Assembly (NCBI GenBank): GCA_023250955.1
Contig: JAHEZQ010000024.1
Span: 1-63,813 of the forward strand
Direction: 5' to 3'
Length of the DNA stretch: 63,813 nucleotides
From: Melioribacter sp.
GTDB lineage: Bacteria; Bacteroidota; Ignavibacteria; Ignavibacteriales; Melioribacteraceae
Below the pieces are notes generated by a model that did not search any database, had not been told where the DNA came from, and saw only the letters and a list, made by a program, of their open reading frames with translations. The translations under genes were made by a program, and so were the position numbers. This document shows positions 35,229-38,433 of the stretch, in pieces; the first letter of the stretch is position 1; every line of letters begins with the position of its first letter.

Positions 35229-35303
35229 TCGGGGTGGGGAGATTCGAACTCCCGACCTCTTCGTCCCGAACGAAGCGCGCTAACCGGGCTGCGCTACACC
35301 CCG
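35229..35303 (-). tRNA. tRNA-Pro (anticodon CGG)
   Basis: A cloverleaf is visible on the minus strand: acceptor CGGGGTG/CACCCCG, anticodon arm CTTCG-TTCGGGA-CGAAG with anticodon CGG, and T-arm GGGAGTTCGAATCTCCC. It reads proline codon CCG. The 3' CCA is not encoded. It is 75 nt long. Confidence 0.95.
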
Positions 35304-35498: not shown

Positions 35499-35529
35499 TT
35501 TGTAATAAATCGAATTTAGTTTAACTTTA
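35499..35529 (+). promoter_or_regulatory. candidate pyr operon promoter
   Basis: TTTG (35499-35502), exactly 19 nt, then TAACTTTA (35522-35529), one base off TAnnTTTG. It predicts a start near 35536 and a leader of ~113 nt that contains the PyrR-box hairpin and the terminator. Confidence 0.55.
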
Positions 35530-35548
35530 GTAAGAAATTTTCCTTTAA

Positions 35549-35580
35549 CTTTATCCGGAGAGATAGGCAAGGGATGAAAG
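35549..35580 (+). promoter_or_regulatory. candidate PyrR-binding hairpin (anti-antiterminator)
   Basis: TCCGGAGAGATAGGCAAGG closely resembles the PyrR-binding loop known from Bacillus pyr leaders (UCC.G.GAGGYU...AAGG, from memory). It is held by a stem: CTTT/AAAG, then ATCC (35553-35556) with GGAT (35572-35575). Its position, between a promoter and a terminator directly before pyrR, fits PyrR-UMP-dependent attenuation. Confidence 0.55.
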
Positions 35581-35611
35581 ACCTAATTAAAATAGAAAAC
35601 AAAAATGGAGA

Positions 35612-35646
35612 CCTCGGCGACTAAAAAGTCAACGAGGATTTTTTTT
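35612..35646 (+). terminator. pyr leader attenuator terminator
   Basis: CCTCG (35612-35616) pairs with CGAGG (35633-35637), and GACT with AGTC, across a small internal loop. Eight T follow and end 2 nt before the pyrR ATG. The 3' arm also holds the likely SD (GAGGA), so the hairpin could block translation too. CTCGG of the 5' arm can alternatively pair with CCGGAG of the PyrR box, giving a possible antiterminator. Confidence 0.75.
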
Positions 35647-35648
35647 AT

Positions 35649-36197
35649 ATGGATATAAAAGCAAAAATAATTGACGAAGAAGGATTTAACCGGACACTCA
35701 CCCGTCTTGCACACGAAATTTTAGAAAAGAACAAAGGATCAAAAAATCTTGTGCTGATAGGAATGCGGACTCGAGGCGAATTTATTGCAGAACGAATTAT
35801 GCAAAAAATTAAAGAAATTGATAAATCAGAACCTAGTTATGGTGTACTTGATGTAACTCTTTACCGTGATGATTTCCGTGTACGGCTAAAACAACCGGAA
35901 ATTTCTGTAACCAATATTACGTTTGATGTTAATGATCGCGATGTAATTCTGATTGACGATGTTTTATACACAGGCAGAACGGTGCGTGCAGCTCTTGATG
36001 CTCTAATGGATCTTGGCAGACCGAATACGATTCAACTTTGTGTTTTGGTAGATCGCGGTCATCGGGAATTACCAATCCGTGCAGATTTTGTCGGTAAGAA
36101 TATTCCAACATCAATTAATGAAGAAGTACGTGTACGTATTAAAGAAACCGACGGTGAAGACGGTGTTTTTTTAGTTAACGCTCCAAGTAAAATTTAG
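35649..36197 (+). CDS. pyrR: bifunctional pyr operon regulator / uracil phosphoribosyltransferase
   Basis: A 182-aa PyrR with the PRPP-binding loop VILIDDVLYTGRTVRAAL and the family segments VGMRTRG-like (IGMRTRGEFIAERI), DVTLYRDD, and LVDRGHRELPIRADFVGKN. In firmicutes PyrR binds pyr mRNA when UMP is high and promotes termination; the hairpin directly upstream fits that. pyrB follows by 10 nt. Confidence 0.95.
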   Translation: MDIKAKIIDEEGFNRTLTRLAHEILEKNKGSKNLVLIGMRTRGEFIAERIMQKIKEIDKSEPSYGVLDVTLYRDDFRVRLKQPEISVTNITFDVNDRDVILIDDVLYTGRTVRAALDALMDLGRPNTIQLCVLVDRGHRELPIRADFVGKNIPTSINEEVRVRIKETDGEDGVFLVNAPSKI

Positions 36198-36207
36198 AGA
36201 GAAGATT

Positions 36208-37128
36208 ATGTCATTATCAAACAGACATTTATTAGGTCTAAACGGTGTACCGAAAGAGGATATTCAACTGATTCTTGATACTGCAACTACATTTCGAGAA
36301 GTTTTAGAACGACCAATCAAGAAGGTACCGACTCTTCAAGGAAAAACAATTGTAAATCTCTTTTATGAAGACTCAACACGTACAAGAATATCATTTGAAC
36401 TAGCACAGAAACGTCTTTCGGCAGACACAATAAATTTTTCAACTTCTACGAGCAGCGTTAAAAAAGGTGAAACTTTTAAAGATACAGTCCGCAACATTGA
36501 AGCTATGAAAGTGGATATGATTGTTGTTCGTCATAAATCTGCAGGTGTACCGCAGTATCTAACTCGAATCTCAAAAGCGAATATTATTAATGCGGGCGAT
36601 GGTCTCCATGAACATCCTACGCAAGGATTGCTTGATATGTATTCAATCAAGGAACGACTTGGAAAATTGGAAGGATTAAAAGTTTGTATTGTTGGAGATA
36701 TTGCTCATAGCCGTGTGGCACTTTCGAATATTTTTGGTTTGAAATCTATGGGTGCAGTTGTTTCGGTTTGCGGACCGGCAACAATGATCCCATTAGAAAT
36801 TGCATCTTTAGGTGTGAAAATTTTTACAAATATAGATGAAGCATTAGCTAAGAATGATGTTCTAAATGTTTTGAGAATTCAACTTGAAAGAAACGCCGGG
36901 ACGAGAATTCCTTCTTTAAGAGAATATCATAAATATTTTGGAATTACATCTGAGCGTATTGAAAAGTTTAATAAAGAAATTGTAATTCTGCATCCCGGAC
37001 CAATTAACAGAGGTGTTGAACTTTCATCAGAAGTTGCGGATGGTCCATATCAAGTAATTCTTGATCAGGTTACAAATGGTGTGGCAGTCCGAATGGCGGT
37101 TTTATACTTACTGGGTACAATGCATTAA
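36208..37128 (+). CDS. pyrB: aspartate carbamoyltransferase, catalytic chain
   Basis: A 306-aa enzyme that forms N-carbamoyl-aspartate from carbamoyl phosphate and aspartate. The carbamoyl-phosphate motif STRTRISFE, the HPTQGLLD segment and HPGPINRGVEL are all present. Length is typical. No pyrI regulatory gene is adjacent, as for class C-type (PyrB-only) enzymes. SD AGAGAAG before the ATG. Confidence 0.97.
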   Translation: MSLSNRHLLGLNGVPKEDIQLILDTATTFREVLERPIKKVPTLQGKTIVNLFYEDSTRTRISFELAQKRLSADTINFSTSTSSVKKGETFKDTVRNIEAMKVDMIVVRHKSAGVPQYLTRISKANIINAGDGLHEHPTQGLLDMYSIKERLGKLEGLKVCIVGDIAHSRVALSNIFGLKSMGAVVSVCGPATMIPLEIASLGVKIFTNIDEALAKNDVLNVLRIQLERNAGTRIPSLREYHKYFGITSERIEKFNKEIVILHPGPINRGVELSSEVADGPYQVILDQVTNGVAVRMAVLYLLGTMH

Positions 37129-37143
37129 GATAAAAGGTGAAAA

Positions 37144-38433
37144 ATGAAAATTATCCTTAAACAAGTTTTAGTATTACATCCTGAACAAAAGCTAAATCAA
37201 AAAAGTGATTTACTGATTAACAACGGAATTATTGAAAAAATTAATGGACTGAATGAAGCTGATTTCAAATCATCAAAAGTTTTTGATCTTGATAATAAAA
37301 TATGTTCGCCGGGATTTTTTGATATGCATGTTCATCTACGGGAACCAGGCAGAGAAGATGAAGAAACAGTTGAAACAGGAAGTAATGCTGCTGCTGCCGG
37401 AGGATTTACCGGCGTTGCTTGCATGCCAAATACGGATCCAAATATAGACTCAGCTGAAATTGTACGATTTATTAAAGAGAAGGCCAAAGAACACTTAGTA
37501 GATGTTTATCCTGTCGCTGCAGCTACACTTGCAAGAAAGGGCGAAGCACTTTCACCAATGTATGAATTATTTGAAGCAGGTGCTGTTGCATTTTCCGATG
37601 ATGGTGTTGCTATTAAAAACGCAGGGGTTTTAAGAAATGCTCTTGAATACTCTTTGAATTTTGGAACACCAATCATTGAACATTGTGAAGATGAATCAAT
37701 GGCTGACGGTGTAATGAATGAGGGATTGATTTCAACAACATTAGGATTGCCAGGTGTACCTAAAGTTGCAGAAGATCTTGTTGTGATAAGAGATATAATG
37801 CTTGCTGAATTTACTGGAGGTAAAGTTCATATTGCTCATATCAGTTCGAAAAAATCAGTTGAGTTGGTTAGACAGGCTAAGAAAAACAAAATTAATGTTA
37901 CCGCTGAAGTAACACCGCACCATTTTTCATTGACTGATGATCTTCTAAAATCTTATGACACAAATTATAAAATGAATCCTCCGTTACGAACACGGGCGGA
38001 TGCAGAAGCAATGATTGAAGGATTGAAAGATGGGACAATTGATTGTATTGCAAGTGATCATGCACCGCATGCAATTGAAGAAAAAGAAATGGAATTTATT
38101 TTTGCACCAAATGGAATAATAGGGCTTGAAACGGAACTCAGTTTAGTAATGAGTGATTTGGTTCATAAAAAACATTTAACCATTTCCCAGGTAATAGAGA
38201 AGATGGCGATTAATCCCAGAAAGATTTTAAATATTCCAATTCCGCAAATAAAAATAGGTGAGGTTGCTAATCTTACAATTTTTGATCCGAATCTAATCTG
38301 GACAGTTGACATCAATAAATTCAAATCAAAAGCAAAAAATTCACCGTTTGATAAACGTCTCATGACTGGTAAATCTATTGCTGTTGTTAATAAAGGGAAA
38401 ATGTTTTTCGAAGATAAATTTACTGCTATATAA
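37144..38433 (+). CDS. pyrC: dihydroorotase
   Basis: A 429-aa class-I dihydroorotase that closes carbamoyl-aspartate to dihydroorotate. The amidohydrolase zinc motif is DMHVHLREPG (His62, His64), followed by FSDDGVA, HCED, AHISS and the catalytic SDHAPH. 15 nt after pyrB; SD AAAGGTG. With pyrR and pyrB it forms the start of de novo pyrimidine synthesis; carA/B, pyrD, pyrE and pyrF are not in this window. Confidence 0.97.
   Translation: MKIILKQVLVLHPEQKLNQKSDLLINNGIIEKINGLNEADFKSSKVFDLDNKICSPGFFDMHVHLREPGREDEETVETGSNAAAAGGFTGVACMPNTDPNIDSAEIVRFIKEKAKEHLVDVYPVAAATLARKGEALSPMYELFEAGAVAFSDDGVAIKNAGVLRNALEYSLNFGTPIIEHCEDESMADGVMNEGLISTTLGLPGVPKVAEDLVVIRDIMLAEFTGGKVHIAHISSKKSVELVRQAKKNKINVTAEVTPHHFSLTDDLLKSYDTNYKMNPPLRTRADAEAMIEGLKDGTIDCIASDHAPHAIEEKEMEFIFAPNGIIGLETELSLVMSDLVHKKHLTISQVIEKMAINPRKILNIPIPQIKIGEVANLTIFDPNLIWTVDINKFKSKAKNSPFDKRLMTGKSIAVVNKGKMFFEDKFTAI

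Follow-up and report, generated by a model that had tools for sequence, protein, structure and literature searches.

A PyrR-type hairpin, a leader reading frame and a terminator before pyrRBC of Melioribacter: a candidate translation-coupled attenuator

The pyrRBC operon lies on the plus strand of the window, which is the whole stretch of 63,813 nucleotides that was analysed (Melioribacter sp., assembly GCA_023250955.1, contig JAHEZQ010000024.1, positions 1 to 63,813). The three genes and the features of the leader before them are listed in Table 1. A tRNA gene on the minus strand (35229-35303) stands back to back with the operon, about 200 nt upstream of its promoter. The pyrR product scores above the curated cut-off of its family model, its nearest solved structures are PyrR structures, and its top named relatives belong to Melioribacter and other Ignavibacteria, the first with 97% identity. 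pyrR is a single-copy gene in the 3.26-Mb genome, in which the runner-up is a weak match with 25% identity. Seven conserved surface residues of B. subtilis PyrR (T18, R19, H22, T41, R141, R146, and K152) are identical in the window protein (7/7, by alignment to Bacillus velezensis PyrR). The four PyrRs whose loci have no hairpin keep six of the seven and carry S at position 18. These residues were rejected as a marker of hairpin use, as operons with and without the hairpin show no clear contrast.

Table 1. Positions of the pyrRBC genes and leader features in the window
Feature	Positions	Strand	Basis
Bacteroidota-like promoter candidate (TTTG 35499-35502, 19 nt, TAACTTTA 35522-35529)	35499..35529	+	sequence
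PyrR-type hairpin	35542..35572	+	Rfam RF00515, 38.7 bits; covariation
Leader ORF (ATG, 15 codons, TAA; MKDLIKIENKNGDLGD, then stop)	35574..35624	+	sequence; start and open frame conserved
Intrinsic terminator (predicted)	35608..35646	+	sequence, folding, conservation
SD-like GAGGA of pyrR, in the terminator 3' arm	35634..35638	+	sequence and conservation
pyrR	35649..36197	+	NCBIfam NF003549, 247.5 bits (cut-off 138)
pyrB, aspartate carbamoyltransferase	36208..37128	+	NF002032, 401 bits (cut-off 263)
pyrC, dihydroorotase	37144..38433	+	TIGR00857, 427 bits (cut-off 279)

The promoter candidate had been pointed out in a preliminary description made from the letters alone, and its TTTG, 19-nt spacer and TAACTTTA are present as described. 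We take this arrangement to be the Bacteroidota promoter type. Among 124 leaders of the order, 64 carry TANNTTTG no more than 60 nt upstream of the hairpin (mean 8.2 and maximum 16 in 100 mononucleotide shuffles), and 51 of its 66 places lie 10-19 nt before the hairpin. The window copy differs from TANNTTTG at the final base.

The hairpin reads CCUUUAAC-UUUAUC-CGGAGA-GAUAGG-C-AAGG from strand to strand. Its lower stem is formed by CCUU (35542-35545) and AAGG (35569-35572) with a 5' bulge of UAAC (35546-35549), and its upper stem (35550-35555 with 35562-35567) is closed by the hexaloop CGGAGA (35556-35561). The loop quoted in the preliminary description contains this hexaloop, and the remainder of the quoted letters belongs to the 3' strand. 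In the model alignment, the window hairpin shows the lower stem, 5' bulge, upper stem, and CNGNGA hexaloop of RF00515. For the Bacillus hairpin, a review gives ARUCCAGAGAGGYU (PMC7430163). The covariance-model search that had been proposed returned a match of 38.7 bits (E 7.3e-4, 501 nt against 4227 families), which is the top RF00515 match across the whole genome. The score lies below the gathering cut-off of 54 bits, so the element is filed as PyrR-hairpin-like and is not an RF00515 member by the curated cut-off. The folding energy of the hairpin alone is ordinary (z -0.6; 49 of 200 shuffles equal or better), and the stability of the leader as a whole is weak (z -1.5). The support for the hairpin is therefore comparative.

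Covariation was scored in an alignment of 61 ungapped hairpins (55 distinct sequences), which comprises the window and 60 of the 61 hairpins of 31 nt among the 76 found; locus L041 and 15 hairpins of other lengths are left out. The hairpins had been collected with a regular-expression pattern composed after inspecting the sequences. Pairing is retained in 98.2% of 550 cells and falls to 47-66% when the partner columns are slid by 1-3. Cells with a double change number 37 against a shuffled mean of 11.2, the covariation score is 0.329 against 0.196, and neither figure was reached by any of 500 shuffles; a double change of any kind is seen in 4 pairs, which is unexceptional (195 of 500 shuffles). 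The hexaloop bases C, G, G, and A (columns 16, 18, 20, and 21) are invariant in 61 of 61 rows, partly because the pattern fixed them. The lower stem is likewise invariant because it was fixed by the search pattern, and two hairpins found outside the pattern by a covariance model built from the relatives' hairpins, the window among them (model R1), carry a compensatory C-G to U-A change there (L234 and L238). The covariation and loop conservation on which the preliminary description had staked its proposal are thus both found among relatives. Together with the Rfam match, the family models, and the co-occurrence with pyrR, they give good support to its claim of a PyrR-type hairpin and a terminator before pyrRBC in an Ignavibacteria genome.

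The hairpin is a steady companion of pyrR in the order. It was found upstream in 76 of 80 named pyrR loci that were collected by protein search and then scanned with the pattern; the 76 take in ten titled Calditrichota, Zixibacteria, KSB1, LCP-89, or just 'bacterium'. In the four misses (L111, L113, L115, and L116), PyrR is intact, and an open frame of 431-468 codons reaches the pyrR start. Their PyrRs carry S for T18 and Q or L for K29, and the other conserved surface residues are retained. Model R1 finds its hairpin in 138 of 164 order genomes and, in a phylum-wide sample of 296 genomes, in 38; PyrR-like proteins occur in 140 of the 164 and 175 of the 296. Of the 38 hairpin-bearing genomes of the phylum sample, 37 belong to the window's class, against PyrR-like proteins in 175 of 296. 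Within the order, pyrR and hairpin occur together in 137 genomes, pyrR alone in 3, the hairpin alone in 1, and neither in 23, a count that takes four genomes missing from both listings as the same four. Thus, the hairpin accompanies pyrR in 137 of 140 pyrR-bearing order genomes. The three with pyrR and no R1 hairpin are G429, G053, and G039; in the last of them, the Rfam model detects a divergent hairpin (L022). The one genome with a hairpin and no pyrR match is G351, and its locus L175 begins a PyrR-like frame.

RF00515 itself gives a match at E<=1 in 55 of 57 genomes (own included), many of which are probably chance matches. A score over the cut-off was reached in one of them, a genome of the same family (G021, 55.1 bits), and a Calditrichota locus (L114) scores 58.2 bits. 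A wider PyrR regulon in the window's own genome was rejected, since R1 has a single match there at E<=1. Second R1 matches in G026 and G368 (L253 and L254) have no pyrR nearby and look coding by eye, and the sole R1 match outside the class precedes a ribosomal L9-like gene and is probably due to chance (L260). A scan of viral contigs gave six matching stretches, none of which encodes a relative. No title on PyrR in Bacteroidetes or Ignavibacteria appeared among the literature matches listed. A full leader in such a genome had been expected to widen the range of PyrR attenuation beyond the firmicutes. The hairpin and the terminator are indeed present in this Ignavibacteria genome, but PyrR elements beyond the firmicutes were known, as RF00515 is described in one survey as a motif of moderate spread over 24 bacterial groups (PMC3766115); the range alone is therefore a modest result.

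The terminator stem pairs CCUCG (35612-35616) with CGAGG (35633-35637), and an upper stem of GACU and AGUC follows across an internal loop of GC and AA. The eight T (35639-35646) end 2 nt before the pyrR ATG, as had been described, but the terminator is not the perfect one that had been claimed, given the GC/AA 2x2 internal loop. Its fold of -13.8 kcal/mol (z -3.3) was equalled by 2 of 200 shuffles; a consensus terminator scan did not list it. A terminator lies between hairpin and pyrR in 122 of 125 order leaders. The fifth stem pair varies among 114 leaders (C-G 35, U-A 27, G-C 19, A-U 16, U-G 6, others 11). The AA on the 3' side of the internal loop is kept in 73 of 114 leaders, and such a weak point in the stem may ease its opening by a ribosome. 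The earlier claim that the 3' arm holds the SD of pyrR is borne out by the GAGGA of the window, and GRGG followed by a T run occurs in 114 of 125 order leaders. Six hairpin-bearing leaders before pyrR have no terminator by the detector, namely L080, L102, and L255 of the order and L139, L149, and L257 of the class; on visual inspection, L149 shows a GC-rich hairpin. The leader ORF of L080 and L102 runs across the pyrR start, which in leaders with no detected terminator suggests translational coupling alone.

A short ORF, absent from the preliminary observations, begins one base past the hairpin. Its 16 codons and stop are ATG AAA GAC CTA ATT AAA ATA GAA AAC AAA AAT GGA GAC CTC GGC GAC TAA, and the TAA stands where the 5' arm of the terminator ends and its loop begins. 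Of the 125 distinct order leaders, 96 carry an ATG at 0-10 nt from the hairpin end (shuffles: mean 30.1, maximum 43), and of the others, 22 have GTG or TTG and 7 have no start codon. AAGG stands just 0-3 nt before most of these ATGs, a shorter distance than the usual spacing rule for an SD allows. A second ATG in the spacer, seen by eye (METSATKK...), is probably a by-product of the terminator sequence. In L162, there is no ATG near the hairpin, and the spacer has an ATG-TAA start-stop pair at the terminator (AAAATGTAACCTC).

The frame opened by this ATG runs into the terminator or to within 12 nt of it in 89 of 94 leaders, against 38 and 44 for the other two frames and a shuffled mean of 58.7 (maximum 74; all order leaders). 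The 12-nt margin accounts for the downstream bases that a ribosome shields while it stands at a stop codon. The training loci came from named records, and 65 of 67 of their leaders recur exactly in genomes of the window's order, the window and L049 standing outside this count. Two further sets were held out, from which a leader was dropped if its identity to a previous one was at least 93% across about 91 nt. The first set went from 58 loci, through the removal of 25 duplicates, 3 without a pyrR motif, and 1 without the pattern, to 29 (21 order, 8 class). The second went from 104 loci, with 57 duplicates and 6 without pyrR within 320 nt removed, to 41 (37 order, 4 class). Shuffles numbered 200 for the ATG test in training, 300 for the margin, pooled, thinned, and strict tests, and 100 for promoter and stop placement.

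In the training set of 65 leaders with a terminator, 55 have the ATG (shuffles: mean 18.5, maximum 28 of 200) and 52 are open by the 12-nt margin against 22 and 29 in the other frames. Held-out set 1 has the ATG in 16 of 21 order leaders (shuffles: maximum 10) and 15 of 16 open against 8 and 4 (shuffles: mean 9.2, maximum 15), so that its 15 just equals the highest of 300 shuffles. Held-out set 2 has it in 23 of 37 (shuffles: maximum 14) and 22 of 23 open against 8 and 11 (shuffles: mean 13.7, maximum 21); as the margin was set after reading set 1, set 2 alone is clean for it. Under a strict rule, by which the frame must stay open as far as the first base of the terminator 5' arm, the training set gives 40 of 55 open against 13 and 16 (shuffles: mean 25.1, maximum 35), set 1 gives 9 of 16 against 5 and 2 (mean 6.1, maximum 11), and set 2 gives 12 of 23 against 5 and 3 (mean 9.5, maximum 17). 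Overall, 61 of 94 relatives have no stop before that base. Under this rule, the shuffles are exceeded by the training set alone, and the held-out sets exceed the other frames, but not the shuffle range. Because the strict results are weak in the held-out sets, the robust signal is the start codon together with the rarity of early stops (5 of 94). When the leaders were thinned to dissimilar spacers at three thresholds, 74 of 78, 55 of 58, and 39 of 41 remained open, which is above all shuffles; the last of these, at less than 0.6 spacer similarity, compares with 22 and 20 in the other frames and a shuffle maximum of 37. Leaders with GTG or TTG behave alike, with 18 of 21 open against 8 and 14.

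Among 95 ATG leaders with a terminator, the stop lies 1-12 nt before the 5' arm in 28, inside the terminator hairpin in 31, near the pyrR start in 31, and earlier in 5. The 28 of 94 in the final 12 nt exceed the shuffled mean of 18.1 and lie within the shuffled range of 8-32. The frame of the leader relative to pyrR is mixed (27, 43, and 48); therefore, the majority of these ORFs do not extend PyrR at its N-terminus. Their peptides vary from leader to leader and show no sequence conservation, as expected if the act of translation alone matters. Beyond the order, 7 of 12 class leaders have the ATG with no frame preference, as do 4 of 10 from other phyla, and no ATG stands within 10 nt of the hairpin in the six Firmicutes and Fusobacterium leaders checked (0/6). 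Since the frame test does not discriminate at the level of the class or in other phyla, we restrict the claim of a leader ORF to the order. Among the literature matches listed, we found none that describes a leader ORF following a PyrR hairpin, a coverage that leaves out most subscription-journal papers and preprints.

The preliminary description had proposed another partner for the hairpin, in which CTCGG of the terminator arm pairs with CCGGAG of the PyrR box as a mutually exclusive antiterminator. In a Bacillus-type switch, PyrR stabilizes an anti-antiterminator, and in its absence an RNA antiterminator formed between the hairpin and the terminator 5' arm permits ribosome-free read-through. 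The window has a like hairpin and its elements in the same order. Each transcript was folded through the terminator 5' arm, and the expected pairs between arm and hairpin were summed. The proposed pairing has a probability of only 0.0024 in the shortened window transcript, with 0.83 expected pairs, and was rejected. Over 93 leaders of the order and class, the median is 0.28, with 82 below 4 pairs and 11 at 4 or more. By the same code, the leaders of Bacillus velezensis pyrP (8.9) and pyrB (6.3), Paenibacillus (6.6), and Lactobacillus (5.2) are positive; those of B. velezensis pyrR (1.2, with a manually placed terminator) and Fusobacterium (0.2) lack a strong antiterminator, so that with a control positive in 4 of 6 Firmicutes and Fusobacterium leaders the absence of the signal is not proof. 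A covarying antiterminator was rejected as well, since over 65 loci the duplex of hairpin and arm is no stronger within leaders than across them (mean -7.11 against -7.33 kcal/mol; the duplex was as strong or stronger in 169 of 200 shuffles). Thus, by thermodynamic prediction with a control positive in four of six, a Bacillus-type antiterminator exclusive with both hairpin and terminator is not supported in the window, and the pairing proposed earlier was not upheld.

Some relatives do pair in this way. At least 4 pairs are expected in 6 of 94 order leaders with ATG, 4 of 21 with GTG or TTG, and 4 of 7 with no start codon. One leader (L011) had been misfiled as start-less because its ATG overlaps the hairpin end of the pattern, and the corrected figures are 3 of 6 against 7 of 95. 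Of the 115 order leaders that combine a start codon with a terminator, 10 show antiterminator-like pairing. The clearest cases are L069 and L095, which have no ATG, GTG, or TTG start and in which GAGAGGU of the hairpin loop pairs with ACCUC(U) of the terminator arm. They suggest that an RNA antiterminator may be exchanged for a leader ORF from one lineage to another, although the numbers are small and the two leaders may be kin. A Bacillus-type switch also leaves the leader start codon and its frame unexplained, and we consider it unlikely for the window.

The leader ORF running up to or into the terminator is a better-supported second arm than that antiterminator. As the start codon lies directly behind the hairpin, the ribosome-binding region would be the 3' half of the hairpin. 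The best explanation of the leader, and in our judgment a probable one, is a PyrR-gated, translation-coupled attenuator with the leader ORF as its second arm. The RNA would begin a few bases before the hairpin. At high pyrimidine levels, UMP-PyrR would hold the hairpin and block ribosome loading, by analogy with translational repression in mycobacteria; the terminator would then fold with no ribosome on the leader, and transcription would stop ahead of pyrR. UMP-bound PyrR stabilizes such hairpins in Bacillus, according to PMC7430163. At low UMP, the hairpin would open, and a ribosome on the leader would translate as far as the terminator 5' arm or into it, which would prevent the terminator from folding and let RNA polymerase read through. 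The same ribosome would expose the pyrR SD that the 3' arm encloses; in about one third of the relatives, it would reach the region of the pyrR start.

In PMC4824070, repression of the E. coli terminator tR2 is near complete when a stop codon sits just upstream, and full termination is back beyond about 27-30 nt, with about 0.8 reached at 18 bp in one of two spacer series. The same source describes terminators in the first 100 bp of a coding region as efficient, because the ribosome has not yet caught up (PMC4824070). As the T run of the window ends 72 nt past the leader ATG, a pause of RNA polymerase would be needed.

The same features could also serve translation alone. In such a scheme, the hairpin with the T run hides the pyrR SD, termination is unneeded, and PyrR blocks the leader ORF and reaches pyrR through coupling. 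In 72 of 114 leaders, 11 nt separate the GRGG of the 3' arm from the pyrR start codon. Among the 118 leaders with a start codon of any kind, 39 have their stop no more than 12 nt from the pyrR start (as ATGA in 18), and three order leaders, L080, L102, and L255, have no detected terminator. In a Microbacterium locus (L156), the hairpin (1447-1479) adjoins the inferred pyrR start with no terminator between them, a layout in which PyrR could block the start codon directly, judging from the sequence. However, the stem and T run kept in 122 of 125 leaders go beyond what hiding an SD needs, and the leader stop lies more than 12 nt before pyrR in 74 of 118. We regard a purely translational control as quite unlikely.

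In the E. coli pyrBI operon, the signal is UTP-dependent pausing without PyrR. If the window worked in this way, leader translation and UTP-sensitive pausing of RNA polymerase would set read-through, and PyrR would be a modulator. The leader ORF does overlap or reach the terminator, as pyrL does in pyrBI, where a closely following ribosome averts termination through tight coupling across the leader, as described in PMC5021804 and PMC4824070. The window differs in having a PyrR hairpin at the leader start codon, the spacer RNA is A-rich rather than U-rich by eye, and a hairpin kept with pyrR in 137 of 140 genomes is needless for a PyrR-free mechanism; such control is very improbable here. That hairpin, terminator, and ORF have no regulatory role and PyrR is a mere uracil phosphoribosyltransferase would fit the score below the cut-off and the ordinary folding energy, but the covariation, the order-wide conservation, the co-occurrence with pyrR, and the statistics of start codon and open frame make it hardly credible.

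The translation-coupled attenuator thus shares parts with several known systems. Like the pyr attenuators of Bacillus subtilis, it has a PyrR homologue, a hexaloop hairpin with a 5' bulge, an intrinsic terminator before the gene, and pyrR in the operon. In contrast to B. subtilis, the window has no supported antiterminator, a leader ORF stands right behind the hairpin, the terminator arm bears the pyrR SD, and there is one site in its genome instead of three. Fields and Switzer reportedly described PyrR-dependent translational repression in Mycobacterium smegmatis in 2007. As in that species, a start codon directly follows the hairpin, at 1 nt in the window, so that bound PyrR would keep ribosomes from loading. 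Unlike in M. smegmatis, the blocked start is that of the leader ORF, and a terminator lies between the leader start and pyrR. Taken together, the missing Bacillus antiterminator, the overlap of leader and terminator as in pyrBI, and the adjacency of hairpin and start codon as in mycobacteria point to a distinct form of PyrR attenuation. PyrR would be the translation gate of a leader peptide, and the ribosome would be the antiterminator that also delivers translation to pyrR; we lean narrowly toward regarding this as a third PyrR mechanism.

The Rfam PyrR cut-off misses nearly all such leaders, as 56 of 57 genomes (own included) have no match over it, and leader ORFs behind known RNA-protein hairpins deserve a look. 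If the proposed mechanism holds, a single RNA-binding protein controls the same operon in three ways, namely through an RNA switch in Bacillus, start blocking in mycobacteria, and a ribosome-coupled terminator in Ignavibacteria. It would also mean that attenuators exchange their second arm while they retain the sensor hairpin.
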